Shown here one piece after another: positions 25,086-41,440 of a DNA stretch of 41,727 nt. The translations under genes were made by a program, and so were the position numbers. The notes beneath the pieces were generated by a model that saw only the letters and a list, made by a program, of their open reading frames with translations, was not told where the DNA came from and did not search any database. Within the stretch, counting starts at the first letter, position 1. The number at the start of each line of letters is the position of its first letter. The DNA comes from Polyangia bacterium (GTDB lineage Bacteria; Myxococcota_A; Polyangia; Polyangiales; Sandaracinaceae). The stretch lies in contig JAUHXR010000041.1 of the NCBI GenBank assembly GCA_030426845.1, positions 1 through 41,727 on the forward strand. The letters are read 5' to 3'.

Positions 25086-25472
25086 ATGAACCGACAGGTG
25101 ATCCAGACCGACGGGGCCCCGGCCGCCATCGGCCCCTACTCCCAGGCCGTCCGCTGCGGAGACCTCGTCTTCTGCAGCGGGCAGATCGCGCTCGATCCAG
25201 CGACGGGTGAGCTGGTGGGCGCGGGCGACGTCGCGGCGCAGACCGAGCGCGTGATGGACAACCTCGCCGCGGTCCTGGCCGCGGCGGGGTCGTCCTTCGC
25301 CAGGGTGGTCAAGGCGACGATCTTCCTGACCGACCTCGGCGACTTCGGGACCGTGAACGCGGTCTACGGCGCCCGCTTCGAGGGGCTCGAGCCGCCAGCG
25401 CGTGCCTGCGTCGAGGTGTCCCGCCTGCCGAAGGACGTGCAGGTGGAGATCGAGGTCATCGCGACGGTGTAG
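25086..25472 (+). CDS. ridA: RidA-family enamine/imine deaminase
   Basis: 128 residues, the typical length. RidA hydrolyses reactive 2-aminoacrylate and related imines formed by PLP enzymes to keto acids plus ammonia, protecting PLP-dependent enzymes. The key residues are Tyr18 in 'GPYSQAV', Arg106 in 'PPARACVEV', which binds the substrate carboxylate, and Glu121 in 'QVEIEVIA'. The N-terminal 'AIGPYSQA' and central 'CSGQIALDPATG' blocks match RidA rather than distant Rid groups. It is a single gene, divergent from the membrane protein at 25049. A TAGCAC ends six bases before the ATG, and there is no good ribosome site. Confidence 0.95.
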   Translation: MNRQVIQTDGAPAAIGPYSQAVRCGDLVFCSGQIALDPATGELVGAGDVAAQTERVMDNLAAVLAAAGSSFARVVKATIFLTDLGDFGTVNAVYGARFEGLEPPARACVEVSRLPKDVQVEIEVIATV

Positions 25473-25530
25473 GCGCCGCCGAAGGGAGGGGACGCGCGAC
25501 GCCGCGGCCGTCCCCCTCCCGCGGCTCGCC

Positions 25531-27066
25531 TCAGAGGGGCGTGCAGCCCTGGACGTCGCCGTCGCCGATCTCGGCGACCATGTTCAGCGAGCCGTCCTCG
25601 AAGACCACGCCGACCTCGGTGTCACCCAGGTAGAAGCGGACCCAGTCGTACTCCGCGCCGTCGATCACCAGGGTGCGCACGTCGAGGGTGTTGTCGTCGA
25701 CCCGGTCCAGCACCTCGAGGAGCGAGTCGCCGCGGCCGGCGCGCTCGTAGTCGAACAGGTGCACCGCGGCGTGCATGACCTGGCGCCACATCGTCGAGTA
25801 GACGCGGTTGTTGCGGTCGACGACGCGGGTCGCGGTGACCGAGCTCTCGAGGTCGGCGCTCGTCCCCGCGAACGGGGCGGGGAGGGTGTAGGAGCACGTC
25901 GCGCTCCTCGCGAAGGTGATCGCGTCCTCGATCCCGTCGACGCACGTCCAGGCGCTGTGGTCCTCGAGCCAGCGGACCACGCAGCGCTCGCGCGCCGCGG
26001 TGACCGGGCCGCCGCAGGCGTCGCTCGCCGCGGCGACGTCGACGTCGCAGCGCTCCTCGCAGCCGTAGTCGCTGTCGCAGATCCCGTCGAGGTCGTCGAC
26101 GTAGGCGCCGTAGCTCGCCTCGCACTCCGCCGTGCACGCCCCCGCGCTGTCGGCGAGCAGGTCCCCGCCGCAAGCCTCGTGGTCGCGCGCGTAGCCGTCG
26201 CAGGTCCCGTTGAACCCCTGGCTCCAGCACATCGAGATCGCGCTCGCCGCGAGGGAGTCGCCGTAGCCGTAGTCGGCGTCGTGGCACAGGTCCATGCAGC
26301 TCTCGAGGACGGCCACGCAGCCCGCGGTCTGGTCGGCCCAGAAGGGCAGCGAGGTGATCAGATCGTCGCAGATGGGCCGCGCCTGGTCGTCGCCGTCGTC
26401 GGGGTTCGTCCAGTCGCAGGCCGCGCCGCAGGTGCCGCCGGCGACCGACCCGAGGCAGTCCTGGAAGATCGTGCGGGCGCGGACGTCGCCGACCCGGCCG
26501 TTGTAGGCGGGCAGCGCCTCGAACGCGCAGACGCGCGCGGCCTCGAGGCACGCGTCCACGTCGGAGAAGTCCATCTCGCGCTCCACCGGCGGCGGCGTCA
26601 CGCCCGCGCAGAGCCCGCCCGTACAGGCGACGCTCATCTCGTAGCTGCCCTCGCCCTGGCCCCGGTAGGCCCGCACCACGAGCAGGTAGGTGCCCGCGGT
26701 GTCGACGACGTAGTCCTTCGTCAGGGCGCCGCCGTCGAGGCTCCAGGCCTCCGAGTCGATGTAGGTCGAGGTGCCGCGGTAGAGCGAGACCTGCGGGTTG
26801 AGATCGCCGTCGGTCACCCGGGCCGTCACGCGCAGCGCGTCGGTGCGGCCGAGCTCGATCCGGTAGAGGTCGAGGTTGTCGCCGGTGATCGTGCCGGTGA
26901 CGGACTCGCCGAACGCGATGGCGGGCACCGCGTCGAGGACGCCGTCGGCCTTGCCGCCCTCTGCGAAGATCGAGTCGTCGTGCCAGCCGGCCTCGAAGTC
27001 ACCCGGGGCGGTGCAGCCACCGGCGAGCGCGAGGGAGACGGCGAGGGTGAGCGCGCCACGAGTCAT
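25531..27066 (-). CDS. Cys-rich secreted lipoprotein with PPC-like domain
   Basis: 511 residues. The ATG at 27066 is fixed by GGAGG six bases upstream. The signal peptide ends in a lipobox-like LAGGC. Residues about 45-150 look like a bacterial pre-peptidase C-terminal (PPC)-type beta-sandwich ('VTGTITGDNLDLYRIEL', 'DGDLNPQVSLYRG', 'AGTYLLVVRAYRGQGEGSYEM'). The centre (about 155-400) has around thirty Cys in pairs such as 'CDSDYGCEERCDVD' and 'CMDLCHD', probably disulfide-bonded. The last about 100 residues form an alpha/beta domain ('MWRQVMHAAVHLFDYERAGRGD') of unknown type. No protease residues are recognised. It would lie on the cell surface; its role is unknown. Confidence 0.75.
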   Translation of the reverse strand: MTRGALTLAVSLALAGGCTAPGDFEAGWHDDSIFAEGGKADGVLDAVPAIAFGESVTGTITGDNLDLYRIELGRTDALRVTARVTDGDLNPQVSLYRGTSTYIDSEAWSLDGGALTKDYVVDTAGTYLLVVRAYRGQGEGSYEMSVACTGGLCAGVTPPPVEREMDFSDVDACLEAARVCAFEALPAYNGRVGDVRARTIFQDCLGSVAGGTCGAACDWTNPDDGDDQARPICDDLITSLPFWADQTAGCVAVLESCMDLCHDADYGYGDSLAASAISMCWSQGFNGTCDGYARDHEACGGDLLADSAGACTAECEASYGAYVDDLDGICDSDYGCEERCDVDVAAASDACGGPVTAARERCVVRWLEDHSAWTCVDGIEDAITFARSATCSYTLPAPFAGTSADLESSVTATRVVDRNNRVYSTMWRQVMHAAVHLFDYERAGRGDSLLEVLDRVDDNTLDVRTLVIDGAEYDWVRFYLGDTEVGVVFEDGSLNMVAEIGDGDVQGCTPL

Positions 27067-27261
27067 GGGGTACCTCCGCCCGGCGCCCTTCGCAGGACGT
27101 GTACCAGCCGCGTCGCGCGTCGTCGCGCCGCCCGATCCCCCGCGAGGGTGGCTGCTGCAGCGGTCGATCGTCGGGCGGGTGGCCACTGGCATGGTCACCG
27201 CCGGCGCTGGAGGGCGTGCTTCGGAGCTGCGCTCGTCCGGCGTGCTCGTCCGGCGTGCTCG

Positions 27262-27483
27262 TCAGCGCAGCCGCGCGACGACCTCACCGTCGTCGGGGAA
27301 GCGGCCCTCGACGTTGCGCTTGTCCCAGAAGATCTCGTCGTCGCGCTTGACGATGAAGTCGCCGCGCCCGCCGCCGATCAGCTCGACGGTCGCGCCGGGG
27401 AAGCTCGCCTCGATCTCGGCGGCCAACCTGACCGCCCGGGGCTTGTAGCTTCACATCACGCAGTATTCGATCGTCACCCGCAC
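27262..27483 (-). CDS. selW: SelW/Rdx-family selenoprotein with in-frame TGA (CxxU)
   Basis: 73 codons read through an in-frame TGA at 27453-27451. The N-terminus is MRVTIEYCVMU (U = TGA, residue 11), and the protein continues SYKPRAVRLAAEIEA, then 'VELIGGGRGDFIVKRD' and 'IFWDKRNVEGRFPDDGEVV', ending at a TGA at 27264-27262. This is the SelW/Rdx fold: strand 1, then CxxU (Cys8-Sec11) where other bacterial members have CxxC, then a helix and two strands. The family is a thioredoxin-like thiol redox protein. The start GTG at 27483 has GAGGA seven bases upstream. A hairpin with a GG-containing loop lies right after the TGA. The homology continues unbroken for over 60 residues past the TGA, so a frameshift or pseudogene is unlikely. 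It lies downstream of purA on the same strand. Sec machinery (SelA, SelB, SelC, SelD) must be elsewhere. Confidence 0.88.
27418..27436 (-). promoter_or_regulatory. Bacterial SECIS-like hairpin within selW
   Basis: On the reverse strand GGCGGUC (27436-27430), loop AGGUU (27429-27425) and GGCCGCC (27424-27418) form a 7-bp stem (one G-U pair). The loop starts 22 nt after the TGA and carries GG, as in bacterial SECIS elements bound by SelB. It lies inside the coding sequence, as bacterial SECIS elements do. Confidence 0.7.
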
Positions 27484-27530
27484 GCGTTCATCCTCGCGCC
27501 CGCCCCCGTCGCGTCAAGCCCGGACCTCAG

Positions 27531-27622
27531 CAGCCCATTGAGGAACCGACCGTGATGGATCGCGGTTGCGCAGGCGCGGGCTCCCGGCCGCGAGGCGCGC
27601 GGGGAGGTTCTTCAACGGGCTG
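27531..27622. repeat. 92-bp element with 17-bp imperfect inverted ends
   Basis: Left end cagcccattgaggaacc (27531-27547) and right end ggttcttcaacgggctg (27606-27622) are inverted copies with 15 of 17 matches. The interior is GC-rich with no gene. The right end abuts the purA stop codon (27623-27625), and the left end lies about 48 bp upstream of the selW start. It could be a MITE-like or REP-like remnant or a bidirectional terminator. The rest of the 27484-27622 gap holds nothing else recognisable. Confidence 0.65.
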
Positions 27623-28897
27623 TTAGGCCCACACATCGCGCAGGCGGATCGTCTCCTCGCGGTCCGGCCCCACGCTCACCAGGGTCACCGGCACCCCGGC
27701 GAGCTCCTCGATGCGACGGATGTAGGCGCGGGCCGTCTCCGGGAGCGCGTCGAGCGTGCGCGCGCCGGCGACGTCCTCCGTCCAGCCCGGCAGCTCCTCG
27801 TAGATCGGCGTCACCCGCTCGAGGCCGCGGCTCGGCGGCCGCTCGAGCCGCGCGCCGTCGAGCTCGTAGGCCACGCAGACCTTCAGCGTCTCGAGCCCCT
27901 GCAGCACGTCGAGCTTCGTCAGCGCCAGCTCGGTGAGCCCGTTGACCCGGACCGCGTGGCGGAGCACCGGCCCGTCGAGCCAGCCGCAGCGCCGCGGACG
28001 GCCCGTCGTCGCGCCGAACTCGTGGCCCGCGCGGCGCAGCGCCTCGCCCGCCTCGCCGTGCAGCTCGGTGGGGAAGGGTCCCTCACCGACCCGCGTCGTG
28101 TACGCCTTGCTGATGCCGACCACCCGATCGATGTGGCCCGGCCCCAGGCCGCTCCCGGTGCACGCGCCGCCCGCGGTCACCGACGAGCTGGTCACGAAGG
28201 GGTAGGTCCCGTGATCGATGTCGAGCATCGTCCCCTGCGCGCCCTCGAGGAGGATCCGCTCCCCCGCCTCGCGCGCGGTGTGGACCGCGTCTTCCGCGTC
28301 GCCGATCCACGGGCGCAGCTCCTCGGCGAGCGCGAGCAGCTCGTCGGCGACCTGCACCGGGTTCGGGGGCGTGCCGCCGAGGGCCTCGATCTCCGGACGC
28401 CAGCCCGCGAGGCTCGCCGCGACCCGCGCCTTGAGGTGGGCCGGGTCGTCGAGATCGCCGATCCGCACGCCGCGCCGGGCCGCCCGGTCCTGGTAGCACG
28501 GCCCGATCCCGCGCTTGGTCGTCCCGATCGCGCCGGGGCCCCGCTCGCGCAGCTCGTCGACGAGGAAGTGCACCGGCAGGACGAGGTGGGCCCGCTCGCT
28601 GATCGTCACGCGACCCTCGCTGAGCAGGCCGCGCCGCCGCATCTCGGCGAGCTCGTCGATCAAGACGCGCGGGTCGATCACCATGCCCGCGCCGAGGATG
28701 CAGCGCGGCCGGGTGTGGAGCGCGCCCGAGGGCACGAGGTGGAAGACGACCTTCTCGCCGTCCACCACGAGGGTGTGCCCCGCGTTGGCCCCGCCCCCGA
28801 AGCGCACGACCGCGTCGGCCTCCGCGGTGAGCAGGTCGACGACCTTGCCCTTGCCCTCGTCACCCCACTGAACCCCGACGATCACCACCGCGCTCAT
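27623..28897 (-). CDS. purA: Adenylosuccinate synthetase
   Basis: 424 residues, normal length. It makes adenylosuccinate from IMP, aspartate and GTP, the first committed step to AMP. The GTP/IMP phosphate motif 'GDEGKGK' is at 12-18, with Asp13 as the catalytic base, and His41 lies in 'NAGHT'. Further family blocks are 'GTTKRGIGPCYQDRAARRG', 'EGAQGTMLDIDHGTYPFV' (in part) and 'TTGRPRRCGWLD'. The start overlaps the hisZ stop by four bases (ATGA), which is the conserved hisZ-purA pair seen in many bacteria. The stop touches an inverted-repeat element. Confidence 0.97.
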   Translation of the reverse strand: MSAVVIVGVQWGDEGKGKVVDLLTAEADAVVRFGGGANAGHTLVVDGEKVVFHLVPSGALHTRPRCILGAGMVIDPRVLIDELAEMRRRGLLSEGRVTISERAHLVLPVHFLVDELRERGPGAIGTTKRGIGPCYQDRAARRGVRIGDLDDPAHLKARVAASLAGWRPEIEALGGTPPNPVQVADELLALAEELRPWIGDAEDAVHTAREAGERILLEGAQGTMLDIDHGTYPFVTSSSVTAGGACTGSGLGPGHIDRVVGISKAYTTRVGEGPFPTELHGEAGEALRRAGHEFGATTGRPRRCGWLDGPVLRHAVRVNGLTELALTKLDVLQGLETLKVCVAYELDGARLERPPSRGLERVTPIYEELPGWTEDVAGARTLDALPETARAYIRRIEELAGVPVTLVSVGPDREETIRLRDVWA

Positions 28898-30144
28898 CGC
28901 GACCCGCTCCCTCCGCGCGCCCAGCGGGCGACGCCGTCCCAGTCTCGCGCCCGCGCGCTCCGGGTCGCGCCGTCACGCACCCGTGTCACCTTGGCTCCCG
29001 CGCACACCACCGCGTCGTATCCCCACGCGCGCCCGTAGTCGAGCGCCGCCCGGACTCCGCCGTCCAGGACCGCGGCCACGTGCCCGCTCGCCCGGATCTT
29101 CCGCGCGACGTCGATCCGGTCGCGCCGCGCCCCGATCACCAGCAGCTTGGCCTGCGGTCCCCGGTCGATCGCGGCCCCCGCCGCGTCGAGGGCGCGCTCG
29201 AGGTTGCCCAGATCGAGCGCGAAGCCGGTCGCCGGCAGATCGGAGCCGAAGCGCCGGAGCAGGCCGTCGTAGCGGCCCCCGCTCGCGATCGCCTCGCCGG
29301 GCCCTCGCGCGAGCAGGCTGAAGCTCGCTCCCGTGTAGTAGGCCTGACCGCGGACCTCGCCGAGGTCGACGCTCAGATCGAGCCCGTCCAGCTCGCGCAC
29401 GATCGCCCCTACCGACCGGAGCGCGGCCTTGGCCTCGTCGCCGTCGAAGACCCGCCGCGCGGCGCGCAGGGTGGGGCCCGGCTCGCCGTAGAGGCCGACC
29501 GCGCCGAGGAGGGTGCGCCGGACCGCGGTCGGGGCCTTGGCCGCTCGGAGCGCCGCCTCGAGCCCCGCCCGATCCTTGCGGCTCAGGGCCTCCTCCGCCT
29601 CCGCGCGGGCCTCGCCCTCGAGCCGGCGCAGCGCGCTCCGGGTCGGCCCGACCAGCGACACGACGACGCGGAACTCCGGCAGCCCCGCCGCCTCGAGCGC
29701 GCCCGCGGCCAGCTTGATCACCTCGAGGTCGCCGTCGGTCCCCGGCGCGCCGAGGTGCTCGACCCCGACCTGCGCGAGGAGCCGCTGCGTTCGCGCCCGG
29801 AAGCGCCGCCGGCGCACCACCGAGCCGCGGTAGCAAAGCCGGTAGGGGGCGGGGCGCCCCGCGAGCTGGGTCGCGACGACCCGCGCGATCTGCGGCGTGA
29901 TGTCCGGACGCAGGAGCGCGCTCTCGCCGGACTCCGGGTCGACGAAGCGGAACAGATCGCGCCGATCGAGGCCGTCGAGCCCGCGCTCGATGACCTCGGC
30001 CCGCTCGAACGGCGGGGTCGTGACGAGCTGGTAGCCCCACGACGCGAACCGCGCGGTGAGGCGGGACGCGAGCGCGGCGCGCGCCTCGGACTCGGGCGGC
30101 AGCAGATCGCGCATCCCGGCCGGGGGTGCGAGGAGTGACGACAT
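28894..30144 (-). CDS. hisZ: ATP phosphoribosyltransferase regulatory subunit HisZ
   Basis: 416 residues. It is a histidyl-tRNA-synthetase-like protein that activates the short form of HisG, the first enzyme of histidine synthesis. Class II synthetase core motifs are visible: 'PAGMRDLLPPE' at the start, 'LLRPDITPQIARV' and 'YRLCYRGSVVRRRRFRARTQ' (motif 2). 'YYTGASFSLLA' and 'GGRYDGLLRRFG' (motif 3 region) follow, then a C-terminal anticodon-binding-like lobe. The substitutions in motif 2 and the pairing with purA favour HisZ over HisS. A GGAGG site lies six bases before the ATG, so this start is well supported. Neighbour purA overlaps by four bases. Confidence 0.9.
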   Translation of the reverse strand: MSSLLAPPAGMRDLLPPESEARAALASRLTARFASWGYQLVTTPPFERAEVIERGLDGLDRRDLFRFVDPESGESALLRPDITPQIARVVATQLAGRPAPYRLCYRGSVVRRRRFRARTQRLLAQVGVEHLGAPGTDGDLEVIKLAAGALEAAGLPEFRVVVSLVGPTRSALRRLEGEARAEAEEALSRKDRAGLEAALRAAKAPTAVRRTLLGAVGLYGEPGPTLRAARRVFDGDEAKAALRSVGAIVRELDGLDLSVDLGEVRGQAYYTGASFSLLARGPGEAIASGGRYDGLLRRFGSDLPATGFALDLGNLERALDAAGAAIDRGPQAKLLVIGARRDRIDVARKIRASGHVAAVLDGGVRAALDYGRAWGYDAVVCAGAKVTRVRDGATRSARARDWDGVARWARGGSGSR

Positions 30145-32997: not shown

Positions 32998-33641
32998 ATG
33001 CAGATATTTCCCAAGCCGCTCAACTTCCTCCCGCTGGTCGCCGCCCTCGGCGTCGCGGCGGGCGGCGGAGTGGTGACGTTCGTCTTCGTGTACTACTTCT
33101 CCCCCTCCAACCTGCAGGTCGGCTACGCGCCGGAGCAGCCGGTGCCCTACAGCCACCGACTCCACGCGGGGCAGCTCGGCATGGACTGCCGCTACTGCCA
33201 CGCGAACGTCGAGCGCTCGGGTGAGGCGATGGTCCCGCCGACCCAGACCTGCATGGGCTGTCACTCGCAGGTCCGGACCGAGTCCGCGCGCCTCGCGCCG
33301 GTGCGCGAGAGCTGGGAGACGGGGATGCCGGTCGAGTGGGTCCGGGTGCACAACATCCCCGACCACGCCTACTTCGACCACAGCGTGCACCTCGCGGCCG
33401 GCGTCGGCTGCGTGAGCTGCCACGGGCGGGTCGATCGCATGGAGGTGGTGACGGTGCAGGAGCCGCTCTCGATGGGCTGGTGCCTCGATTGCCACCGCAA
33501 CCCGGATGACCACATCCGGCCGATCTCCCGGATCACCGACATGGCCTGGACGAGCGAGGACGCGACCGAGGCCGAGCGCCGCCAGATGGCGGGCCTGCTC
33601 GCGCGCGCCGTCCCGCCGGAGAACTGCTCGGGGTGCCACCG

Positions 33642-33645
<4 letters not shown>
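32998..33645 (+). CDS. actA: Alternative complex III subunit ActA, pentaheme cytochrome c
   Basis: 215 residues. One N-terminal signal-anchor span (about 10-33) holds a periplasmic domain with five CxxCH heme sites: CRYCH (64-68), CMGCH (85-89), CVSCH (138-142), CLDCH (162-166) and CSGCH (210-214). Five hemes match ActA, the electron exit subunit of alternative complex III. This complex oxidises menaquinol or ubiquinol and delivers electrons to an acceptor such as cytochrome c or an oxidase. Many spare His residues (for example 'VHNIPDHAYFDHSVH') can serve as sixth ligands. The stop overlaps the actB start (ATGA). It heads the operon, with a good promoter 55 bp upstream. Confidence 0.95.
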
Positions 33646-36760
<3,115 letters not shown>

Positions 36761-36761
<1 letters not shown>

Positions 36762-38212
36762 TGGCTCACTACAAGCCCATCCTCGACGAGACGCCGCTCG
36801 TCTCCGAAGGCACCTCGTTCAAGGAGATCACCGAGATCGTCTCCCGGGTGACCGAGCAGAAGGCGCCCCGGCTCTGGTGGATCCTCTTCGTGCTCAGCGT
36901 CAGCGGGACGGGGATCCTCGGCGGCACGATCGGCTACCTGCTCTGGACCGGCATCGGCGTCTGGGGGAACAACTCCCCGGTCGCGTGGGCCTGGGACATC
37001 ACCAACTTCGTGTGGTGGATCGGCATCGGCCACGCGGGGACGCTGATCAGCGCAGTCCTCTACCTCTTCCGCCAGTACTGGCGGACGGCGATCAACCGCT
37101 TCTCCGAGGCGATGACGATCTTCGCCGTCATCTGCGCGCTCCTGTTCCCGACCATCCACACCGGTCGGCCCTGGTTCATCTACTACCCGCTCCCGATCCC
37201 GAACCAGATGAACATGTGGCCGAACTTCAAGAGCCCGCTGCTGTGGGACGTGTTCGCGGTGAGCACGTACTTCACGGTGTCGCTGCTCTTCTGGTACGTC
37301 GGCCTCGTCCCGGACTTCGCGACCCTGCGCGACCGCGCGAAGAACAAGATCCGCAAGTGGATCTACGGCTTCGTCGCCCTCGGCTGGCGCGGCAGCAACC
37401 GGCACTGGAGCAACTACGAGCGCGCCTACCTCATCCTCGCCGCGCTCAGCACCCCGCTCGTCCTCTCGGTGCACTCGGTCGTTAGCTTCGACTTCGCGAC
37501 CAGCGTCGAGCCGGGCTGGCACACGACCATCTTCCCGCCGTACTTCGTCGCCGGCGCCGTGTTCAGCGGCTTCGCGATGGTCATGACGCTCCTGCTCATC
37601 GCGCGGACCGTCTACGGCATGCACGACCTCGTGCGCATCCGGCACCTCGAGCTGATGAACAAGATCATGCTCACGACGGGGACGCTGGTCGGCTACGCGT
37701 ACGGCATGGAGTTCCTGATCGCCTGGTACTCCGGCAACCCGTACGAGAAGTACGTGTTCATCAACCGCGCCACCGGCGACTACTGGTGGGCGTACTGGTC
37801 GATGATCAGCTGCAACGTCATCAGCCCGCAGCTCTTCTGGTTCAAGAAGATCCGGCGGAGCATCCCGGCGATGTTCGTCATCTCGATCGTCATCAACATC
37901 GGGATGTGGTTCGAGCGCTTCGTCATCATCGTGACGTCGCTGCACAACGACTACCTGCCGAGCGCGTGGGGCAACTTCACCCCGACGCTGTTCGACATCA
38001 CGACCTTCCTCGGCTCGCTCGGGCTGTTCTTCACCGCCTTCCTCCTCTTCCTCCGGTGGATGCCCATGATCGCCATCGCCGAGGTCAAGATGGTCATCCC
38101 CCAGGCCGACCCCCACCACCACCCGGAGGGGGACGACCACGGTCACGACCACGACGACGAGGACGAGGAAGACGGACACGCGGACCTCGAGCCGGCGCTG
38201 GCGGAGGAGTAG
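36761..38212 (+). CDS. actC: Alternative complex III subunit ActC, NrfD/PsrC-like quinol-binding membrane protein
   Basis: 483 residues with eight to ten membrane spans of the NrfD/PsrC type, for example '[25 protein letters not shown]' (partly quoted), the '[18 protein letters not shown]' helix, and '[19 protein letters not shown]', a periplasmic-side block typical of ActC. It holds the quinol oxidation site next to ActB. The family size and helix pattern are intact. The last 40 residues (about 443-483) form an unusual tail rich in His and Asp/Glu ('[17 protein letters not shown]'). The start overlaps the actB stop by one base, and actD follows after four bases. Confidence 0.95.
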
Positions 38213-38216
38213 GACG

Positions 38217-38813
38217 ATGGCCGCTTCGAAGAAGAAGACGAAGAAGTCTCACACGCCCGCGACCGACGCGGACGGGCGCCCGCTCCTGTACCTCGCGGAG
38301 TACGACACCCCGGCCGACGTCATGCACGCGGCCGAGAAGGTGCGCGACGCGGGCTACTCGCGCTGGGACGTCCACACCCCGTTCCCCGTCCACGGCATGG
38401 ACCGCGCGATGGGGATGCCCGACTCGAAGGTCGGCTGGATCGTCCTCGCGATGGGCCTCACCGGCTGCACCACCGCGTTCCTCCTGATGTGGTGGACGAA
38501 CGGCATCGACTACGAGCTGGTCATCGGCGGCAAGCCGGGCTTCTCCATCCCGTCGATGATCCCGGTCATGTTCGAGCTGACCATCCTGCTCAGCGCGTTC
38601 GGCGCGGTGTTCGGGATGTTCGGCCTGAACCAGCTCCCCAGGCACTGGCACCCGGTGTTCTTCTCGGACCGGTTCGACCGCTGCTCGGACGACAAGTTCT
38701 TCATCTCCATCGAGGCCGCGGACCCCGAGTTCGACCTCGCCGACACCCGCTCGCTGCTCGAGGACACGCACCCGACGAACATCGAGCTCATCCAGGAGGA
38801 GGTGGCCCAATGA
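38217..38813 (+). CDS. actD: Alternative complex III subunit ActD
   Basis: 198 residues. The N-terminus is Lys-rich ('SKKKTKKSH'), followed by a soluble domain beginning 'YLAEYDTPADVMHAAEKVRDAGY' (partly quoted). Two membrane spans come next ('VGWIVLAMGLTGCTTAFLL' and 'MIPVMFELTILLSAFGAVF'), joined by a short loop, and a short C-terminal domain. This two-span layout with DUF3341-type N-terminal region is ActD, a structural subunit of the complex. A ribosome site (GAGGAG) precedes the ATG. Its stop overlaps the actE start (ATGA). Confidence 0.93.
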   Translation: MAASKKKTKKSHTPATDADGRPLLYLAEYDTPADVMHAAEKVRDAGYSRWDVHTPFPVHGMDRAMGMPDSKVGWIVLAMGLTGCTTAFLLMWWTNGIDYELVIGGKPGFSIPSMIPVMFELTILLSAFGAVFGMFGLNQLPRHWHPVFFSDRFDRCSDDKFFISIEAADPEFDLADTRSLLEDTHPTNIELIQEEVAQ

Positions 38814-39463
38814 GCGCCGCCGACACGCTCCCCCGCCCCGCGTGGGGCGCGCCCGCGCTGGCGGTGATGGCCCTGGCCATGATCGCGGGCTGTCAGGGCC
38901 AGACCTCGGCCGAGCCGCCGATCGTCCCCGTGCGGAACATGCACGAGCTGCCGCGCTACGACGCGCAGGAGGCGAGCCCCTACTTCGCCGACGGCCGCGC
39001 GATGCGCCCCCCGGTCCCGCACACCATCGCGCGGGAGATGGAGGTCGACGAGGCGATCGACACCGGCGTCGACGTCGAGGGCGACTACGTGCTCAGCATC
39101 CCCGAGGCGGTCGTCGCTCGGGCGGGCGGGCTCGAGGACCTCACTCGGCGCGGCCACGAGCGCTACGACGTCTACTGCGTGCCCTGCCACGGCGGGCTCG
39201 GCGACGGCAACGGCATGGTCCCCGAGGTGTCGGGGGTCGGCACGATCCGGCCGCCCACCTTCCACGACGACCGCCTGCGCCACGCGCCGGACGGCCAGAT
39301 CTACGCGACCATCCGCAACGGCATCCGGAACATGCCGGCCTACGCCCACAACGTCCCGGTCCATGATCGCTGGGCGATCGTGGCCTACGTCCGCGCCCTC
39401 CAGGTGAACCAGGCGGACGGTCGCACGGCGGCGCTCGAGCCCCAGACGGGAGCTGGACGATGA
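38810..39463 (+). CDS. actE: Alternative complex III subunit ActE, monoheme cytochrome c lipoprotein
   Basis: 217 residues. The signal peptide ends in a lipobox IAGC (Cys28), so it is membrane-anchored by lipid on the periplasmic side. One heme site CVPCH is at 123-127, with Met175 in 'RNMPAYAH' as the likely sixth ligand, typical of class I cytochromes. The N-terminal extension 'MHELPRYDAQEASPYFADGRAMRPPVP', partly quoted, is a hallmark of ActE, which wraps around other subunits. It is an electron-transfer subunit of the complex. Start and stop overlap neighbours by four bases (ATGA). Confidence 0.94.
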   Translation: MSAADTLPRPAWGAPALAVMALAMIAGCQGQTSAEPPIVPVRNMHELPRYDAQEASPYFADGRAMRPPVPHTIAREMEVDEAIDTGVDVEGDYVLSIPEAVVARAGGLEDLTRRGHERYDVYCVPCHGGLGDGNGMVPEVSGVGTIRPPTFHDDRLRHAPDGQIYATIRNGIRNMPAYAHNVPVHDRWAIVAYVRALQVNQADGRTAALEPQTGAGR

Positions 39464-40968
39464 GCAAGCCCAAGAAGAAGTCGGCCGCGAAGGGCGAGTC
39501 GCCCAAGGCCAGCAAGAAGAAGGCGGAGGCCAAGAGCCCCACCTATCGCATCCCCGCAGACAGCCCCTGGGCCAACGCGTGGAAGGTCGCCGCGGCCTTC
39601 GGCGGCATCGGCCTGGTCGCCTCGATCTTCGGGATGACCAGCGACCCGGACCGCTTCGCCTACAGCTGGCTGTTCGCGTTCATGACCTTCCTGGCGGTCG
39701 GGCTCGGCGCGCTCTTCTTCGTGCTCGCCCAGCACCTCACGGGCGCCGGCTGGGGCGTCACGCTCCGGCGCGTCAGCGAGTTCCTGATGAGCGGCCTGCC
39801 GGTGTTCGCGCTGCTCTTCGTCCCGGTGTTCTTCAACATGGACCGCCTCTACCCGTGGCTCGAGCACGGCGAGCACGGCGAGGCCCACGAGGAGGAGCAC
39901 GGCGACGGCGAGCACGGTGATGGCGAGCACGGGGACGAGCACGGCGAAGAGGCCGAGCACGGCAGCTGGCTCGGCCTCGGCGACGGTACCGCTCAGGCGC
40001 AGGACCCGCGCGACCCCTGGGACATGCACCCGGACGAGGTCGCCGCCCAGGCCGCGGAGCACGGCGCCGAGGAGCACGGCGAGCACCACGACCCCGAGCA
40101 CCAGCTCCACGGCGAGATCCTCGAGTCGAAGAACTGGTTCCTGAGCCGGGGCTTCTTCCTCGTCCGGATGGCGCTCTACTTCGCCCTCTGGATCGCGATG
40201 TTCTGGTTCTACTTCTCCAACTCCACCCGCCAGGACAAGGAGAAGGGGAAGCTCGCGATCACCAAGCGGATGGAGCTGCTCGCGCCCGTCTGCACCATCC
40301 TCTTCGGCGTCACGCTGACCGGAGCGGCCATCGACTGGACCATGTCGATGGAGCCGAGCTGGTACTCGACCATCTTCGGGGTCCAGTACTTCGCGGTGAG
40401 CGCGGTGATCGCCCACGCGGTCATCATCCTCATCACGATGGGGCTGCGCCGCTCGGGCCTCATCGGCAACGCGGTGCACGTCGAGCACTTCCACGACATC
40501 GGGAAGCTGCTCCACGGCTTCATCATCTTCTGGGCCTACATCAGCTTCAGCCAGTTCATGCTGATCTGGTACGCGGGCATCCCCGAGGAGTCGACCTACT
40601 ACCACCTGCGCTGGTGGGGCGGCGGCGGCTTCCTGAACCTCAGCGTGATCATGATCCTCGCCGGGTTCATCGTGCCCTTCTTCATCCTGATGTCGCGCAA
40701 CGCGAAGCGGAACCTGCCGGTGCTGACCTTCGGCGCCGCCTGGGTCGCCGTGATGCACATCGTCCAGTGCTACTGGCTCTACATGCCCTACGCGGAGCAG
40801 ACCGGGCTCGTGGCTACCTCGCTGCGCCTGCACTGGCTCGACATCGCGTCGCTGCTCGCGGTGGGCGGCATCTACCTCGCGGTCGTGTTCTGGAACATGA
40901 CCCGCTACCCGCTGATCCCGGTGGGCGACCCGCGCGTGGAGCGGGCGCTGCACCACGAGGTCGTCTGA
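39460..40968 (+). CDS. actF: Alternative complex III subunit ActF with His/Glu/Asp-rich loop
   Basis: 502 residues, longer than the roughly 400-430 usual for ActF. It starts with a Lys-rich cytoplasmic tail (1-27), then about ten spans of the ActF/NrfD-like group, with blocks 'GAAIDWTMSMEPSWYSTIFG' (partly quoted) and 'LLHGFIIFWAYISFSQFML'. Residues about 136-217, after the third predicted span, form a charged loop with about 15 His plus many Glu/Asp in HGE/HGD repeats. ActF supports proton or quinone handling in the complex. It overlaps the actE stop and is followed after 13 bases by a small single-span protein gene with its own GAGGAGG site. Confidence 0.93.
   Translation: MSKPKKKSAAKGESPKASKKKAEAKSPTYRIPADSPWANAWKVAAAFGGIGLVASIFGMTSDPDRFAYSWLFAFMTFLAVGLGALFFVLAQHLTGAGWGVTLRRVSEFLMSGLPVFALLFVPVFFNMDRLYPWLEHGEHGEAHEEEHGDGEHGDGEHGDEHGEEAEHGSWLGLGDGTAQAQDPRDPWDMHPDEVAAQAAEHGAEEHGEHHDPEHQLHGEILESKNWFLSRGFFLVRMALYFALWIAMFWFYFSNSTRQDKEKGKLAITKRMELLAPVCTILFGVTLTGAAIDWTMSMEPSWYSTIFGVQYFAVSAVIAHAVIILITMGLRRSGLIGNAVHVEHFHDIGKLLHGFIIFWAYISFSQFMLIWYAGIPEESTYYHLRWWGGGGFLNLSVIMILAGFIVPFFILMSRNAKRNLPVLTFGAAWVAVMHIVQCYWLYMPYAEQTGLVATSLRLHWLDIASLLAVGGIYLAVVFWNMTRYPLIPVGDPRVERALHHEVV
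39865..40110 (+). repeat. Low-complexity His/Glu/Asp-coding repeat in actF
   Basis: The DNA repeats the theme gagcacggcgac with variation and codes for about 15 His in 82 residues. It forms a loop between predicted spans of ActF and is absent from the ordinary layout of the family as I know it. Confidence 0.7.
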
Positions 40969-40981
40969 GGAGGCACCTGCG

Positions 40982-41440
40982 ATGGCCGAACCGAAGCCCG
41001 AGTACGGACCCCCGAGGAACGGGATCATCTTCTTCTTCGTCGTGCTGTCAGTTCTGACGCTGGCGTCGTTGAAGCCCGCCTTCGACTCCTACTACGACAG
41101 CATGCACACGGGCGCGGTCCAGGACCGGCTCGAGACCTACAGCGACCTCGGCGACGTGGACGCGGCCCGCGCCCGCTGGGCGAGCTCGCTGCGCGGCATC
41201 GACCAGAGCATCACCGACTTCGCCGAGGGCCGGCCCGGGCTGGTCCGTCCGCAGGCGGGGGCGGAGATGAACCTTGACCCGCTGGTCGGGTGGAACCAGC
41301 TCCCTCAGGCCGTGCCGGATCGCGCCCAGCCGGAGCCGGAGCCCGAGGTGATCGAGGACGAGACGCTCTCGCCCGACGCGATCGACGCGCTCGAGGAGCT
41401 CGCTCCGACCGGCGAGCCCGACGAGGCCCCCGCCGAGTGA
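40982..41440 (+). CDS. Single-span membrane protein in the act operon, unknown
   Basis: 152 residues. The ATG at 40982 follows a GAGGAGG site. Residues about 14-30 form one membrane span, and the rest faces the periplasm: 'KPAFDSYYDSMHTGAVQDRLETY' (partly quoted), a helical part, then a Pro/Glu-rich acidic tail. There is no heme, copper or FeS motif and no Cys. Its place between actF and a SCO gene suggests a role in assembly or stability of alternative complex III or the linked oxidase; that is inference. It is not clearly ActG or ActH as known in Rhodothermus. Confidence 0.75.
   Translation: MAEPKPEYGPPRNGIIFFFVVLSVLTLASLKPAFDSYYDSMHTGAVQDRLETYSDLGDVDAARARWASSLRGIDQSITDFAEGRPGLVRPQAGAEMNLDPLVGWNQLPQAVPDRAQPEPEPEVIEDETLSPDAIDALEELAPTGEPDEAPAE

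Follow-up and report, generated by a model that had tools for sequence, protein, structure and literature searches.

The window analysed here, a stretch of 41,727 nt from a Polyangia bacterium, carries on its reverse strand (27262-27483) a gene of the SelW-like (Rdx) family whose frame is interrupted by one TGA. Reading from 27483 to 27262, the frame comprises a GTG start codon at 27483 and nine further codons, an in-frame TGA at 27451-27453, 62 sense codons and a TGA stop at 27264-27262. A probable ribosome binding site, GAGGA (27495-27491), lies 7 nt upstream of the GTG as judged from sequence alone, and relatives such as L036 (M-RITIKYC) and L040 have an ATG start at the corresponding position of the alignment. 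With the in-frame TGA translated as selenocysteine (U), the product is a 73-residue protein, VRVTIEYCVMUSYKPRAVRLAAEIEASFPGATVELIGGGRGDFIVKRDDEIFWDKRNVEGRFPDDGEVVARLR, in which the predicted selenocysteine is residue 11 and occupies the second redox position of a C8-V-M-U11 motif. This motif follows the first beta strand and aligned with the CxxU and CxxC motifs of relatives. The Pfam Rdx profile (PF10262) matched the read-through protein at 2e-18 (66.8 bits, cut-off 22.6) over profile positions 1-73 of 74. Two NCBIfam models also matched over nearly the full length: TIGR02174 (CXXU_selWTH) with 49.4 bits, above its cut-off of 34.2, and NF041051 (SelTWH_Campy, 'SelT/SelW/SelH family (seleno)protein') with 85.3 bits, just below its equivalog cut-off of 88. 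GC content by codon position was 0.65/0.45/0.95, similar to that of the neighbouring purA (0.77/0.50/0.97), and together with the Pfam score this excludes a chance frame. An earlier note on this DNA had proposed the read-through frame, its membership of the Rdx/SelW family and a good ribosome site at the GTG start, and the translation and the Pfam match bear out the first two, while the GAGGA sequence fits the third.

When a profile built from the Sec-type relatives was compared with solved structures, Rdx/SelW proteins matched at 1e-12 to 2e-8, including 3dex (1.5e-12) and 2obk, annotated 'SelT/selW/selH selenoprotein domain' (1.7e-10). Eukaryotic selenoprotein W (2npb, 4e-4) belongs to the same family by sequence and shares the CxxU motif; it differs in that its SECIS element lies in the 3′-UTR, whereas that of the window gene lies within the coding region. 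No other Rdx gene was found in the 9.4 Mb host genome. A coding role for the opposite strand was rejected, as the 717-aa open reading frame at 25402-27555 of the forward strand had no Pfam match, lacked a third-position GC peak (0.92/0.56/0.69) and gave a sole tblastn match to the antisense of a relative's SelW gene.

The conservation of the TGA was analysed in 116 genomes of the host order, host included. An Rdx gene was present in 43 of them, and 31 genomes, the host among them, carried a total of 33 Rdx genes with exactly one internal TGA. In the alignment this TGA fell at the second position of the CxxU motif in 33/33 cases, and at the residue-11 column these genes aligned with 12 clear Cys-type genes, so that relatives show either TGA or Cys there, in line with the proposal of the earlier note that the TGA sits at the redox Cys site. 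Rather than ending at the TGA, an outcome which that note had named as fatal to its reading, the homologs continue past it. Outside the order, a TGA-containing DNA pattern found at least 118 stretches in genome_contigs, and all 118 listed matched the family profile (E <=3e-9); among the matches listed were Gemmatimonadetes, Acidobacteria, Poribacteria, Desulfobulbaceae, Planctomycetes, Myxococcaceae, Archangium violaceum, Sulfidibacter corallicola and others. Comparison of the window gene with its close relative L044 over the 60 codons that could be aligned 3′ of the TGA gave a dN of 0.32 and a dS of 0.72, and the differences were mostly at third positions (26 versus 17 and 13), which is the pattern of a translated sequence. 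The region downstream of the TGA is therefore under purifying selection.

Immediately 3′ of the TGA, at 27418-27436 of the reverse strand, the RNA can fold into a bacterial SECIS hairpin (GGCGGUCA, loop GGU, UGGCCGCC) that spans nt 18-36 counted from the T of the TGA. Over 25 distinct stems, 193/200 pairs were kept, with changes on both sides at several pairs, and nt 26 in the loop was a G in 25/25. As a control, synonymous codons were shuffled within alignment columns, which leaves every protein unchanged but does not correct for kinship among the sequences; shuffled sets kept 168.5 +/- 3.2 pairs, and 193 was reached in 0/2000 trials. Relative to the common stem, that of the window shows paired changes from C-G to G-C at 21/33 and from G-C to C-G at 24/30, and the changes in its 3′ arm are synonymous Leu/Ala codon switches. 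Because the single-sequence fold was of modest stability (z -1.1 against shuffles) and the 8 pairs were also formed by 333/20000 random synonymous recodings, the case for a SECIS element rests on the covariation across relatives. Rfam gave no match in the window at gathering score. The hairpin, which had not been part of the earlier note, adds independent evidence for the selenoprotein reading.

The selenocysteine machinery that the earlier note had called for, selA, selB, selC and selD, is all present in the host genome. selA (3.9e-124), selB (1.9e-73) and a tRNA-Sec (selC; 78.3 bits, anticodon TCA) form one cluster on contig C428. The host selD (3.4e-100; L019:1501-2427) contains one TGA in the motif SGGUAAK and is itself a predicted selenoprotein gene, and fdhA, encoding the formate dehydrogenase alpha subunit (8.2e-243; G000:C429:6156-8168), also carries one TGA. 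No TGA was found inside the AhpC-TSA or thioredoxin matches of the host genome. Among the families searched, SelW, SelD and FdhA are thus the three predicted selenoproteins of the host. Across the order, selA scored above the cut-off in 25/31 genomes with a TGA-type Rdx gene, and two more had a partial selA, compared with 12/85 genomes without such a gene. With partial genes counted, co-occurrence was 27/31 versus 12/85 (Fisher p about 4e-13; 4e-11 when partial selA genes were left out), p-values that do not refer to independent events since the genomes are related. Four TGA-type genomes lacked selA, and three of them (G022, G058 and G104) had a clear tRNA-Sec of 62-69 bits. In the fourth, G007, the tRNA-Sec search gave only a 49-bit match, as in selA-less genomes; because this assembly is fragmented and its SelW resembles that of another family of the order, missing or foreign contigs probably lie behind the exception.

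All in all, five features that can be read from sequence, namely the open frame, its family membership, the conservation of the TGA, the covariation in the hairpin and the presence of the machinery, make it almost certain that 27262-27483 is a genuine SelW-like selenoprotein gene, whose UGA is predicted to be read as selenocysteine through SelB and the hairpin. We also considered that the TGA might mainly act as a real terminator after a 10-codon leader, the downstream frame being reached only rarely or conditionally, for example as a selenium-sensing switch. As a rule, selenocysteine is inserted with low efficiency and in a manner dependent on the supply of selenium, and the leader before the TGA is very short, both of which would fit such an arrangement; against it, most of the conserved functional domain is encoded by the downstream frame, and an internal start would lose the redox Cys8, which lies upstream of the TGA. 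We judge this explanation to be highly improbable, and since it would still need selenocysteine insertion to yield the full protein, it describes regulation more than a true rival. Equally slight is the probability that the gene is a pseudogene or a sequencing error, that is, a Cys-type Rdx gene in which TGC or TGT was mutated to or misread as TGA: Cys-type genes do occur in the order (for example L022-L033) and TGC and TGA are one base apart, but a TGA at the same position in all 33 genes of 31 genomes and in stretches from many phyla, the dN and dS values after it, and the covarying SECIS hairpin refute this explanation. The full selenocysteine machinery also speaks against it, as does the different-looking subfamily sequence of the Cys-type genes (RWLxRAAWLAQELLTTF...), both types being present in G057 and G078.

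For the selenoprotein, we infer a mechanism in which SelB carrying Sec-tRNA(Sec) would bind the hairpin just 3′ of the UGA during translation, so that selenocysteine would be inserted at residue 11 instead of termination taking place. The 73-residue product would then adopt the Rdx (SelW/SelT/SelH) fold with C8-x-x-U11 as its redox pair, and, by analogy with the family, this pair would carry out selenol/thiol exchange with its presumed partners, U11 attacking and C8 resolving the selenenyl-sulfide. The protein is most likely a small thiol/selenol oxidoreductase. The only non-Sec relatives found in genomes that bear selA and have no TGA-type copy came from G055 and G109; these are distant members that have lost the first Cys and retain a Cys at position 11, a weak hint that the attack is made by the residue at this position.

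The Cys-type Rdx proteins of the order (L022-L033) are of one family with the window protein and have CxxC where it has CxxU. They differ from it not only in carrying Cys for Sec but also in their distinct conserved subfamily sequence and in occurring mostly in selA-less genomes. With both types side by side in G057 and G078, and with the forms from G055 and G109 that lack the first Cys as the only non-Sec relatives in selA-bearing genomes without a TGA-type copy, the Sec-type SelW of the order might represent a subfamily of its own for which Cys counterparts are almost absent, and not the Cys-type Rdx with Sec exchanged for Cys, a tentative proposal about which we remain somewhat doubtful. 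If true, it would imply that the lineage as a whole has a Sec-dependent function different from the one served by the Cys-type Rdx. An aligned set of Sec-type and Cys-type sequences makes the role of bacterial SelW-like proteins easier to test. We also observed, in G015 and G038, a second TGA-type Rdx gene (L074 and L075) that has its own hairpin and in which the FP motif is preceded by a longer insertion (ending RLLGTDGFP or RLLGADGFP); G109 has this long form with Cys in place of Sec and without the first Cys (L076).

The gene adds a member to a family whose bacterial representatives have been known since 2005, and its mechanism is nothing new; in this respect the earlier note had overstated the novelty of the locus. 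SelW-like selenoproteins with bacterial SECIS elements were first reported in 2005, from the Sargasso Sea (PMC1088965), and in 2006 they were described from Geobacter sulfurreducens, Desulfotalea psychrophila, Symbiobacterium thermophilum and others, with Cys forms of SelW being rare among Sec-decoding organisms (PMC1794560). The window gene resembles these proteins in its Rdx family membership, in the CxxU motif with an in-frame UGA, in the bacterial SECIS just 3′ of the UGA, whose small apical loop contains a G, and in a Sec-decoding genome that also has a Sec-containing SelD and FdhA; it differs only in the host lineage and in points of sequence, two one-residue insertions among them. SelW in myxobacteria was not named in the accessible text of the open papers covered by a limited literature search. 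A small gene with an in-frame stop is a clean case of the type that is easily lost in standard gene finding, and as TGA-type genes are present in 31/116 genomes of the order and in many other phyla, it may well be that not all small selenoproteins of these groups have been annotated.

Upstream of the SelW-like gene and on the same strand lie purA (27623-28897) and a gene for a HisRS-type protein, hisS or hisZ (28894-30144), which overlap by 4 bases. Neither purA nor hisS/hisZ had a match in the flanks of the order's relatives, which were only 0.5 to 1.5 kb long; a conserved linkage of purA and SelW is thus without support within flanks of that length, and the neighbours give no functional clue. 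Between the purA stop codon and the SelW-like gene we found a 92 bp element (27531-27622) with 17-bp inverted ends (CAGCCCRTTGARGAACC). Single ends of this element occur 87 times in the genome at <=1 mismatch, compared with 0 for a reversed-pattern control; full copies are about 160 bp long and flanked by 4-bp repeats (e.g. CTAA, CTGA and CTAG), and the copies examined land next to stop-like triplets. Given the inverted ends, the genomic copies and the 4-bp flanking repeats, the element resembles a MITE with CTNR-type insertion sites. Elsewhere in the window, the forward strand carries at 33633-41440 the genes of an alternative complex III (act) operon, including an Fe-S/molybdopterin-type subunit, an NrfD subunit, ActD and a cytochrome c.
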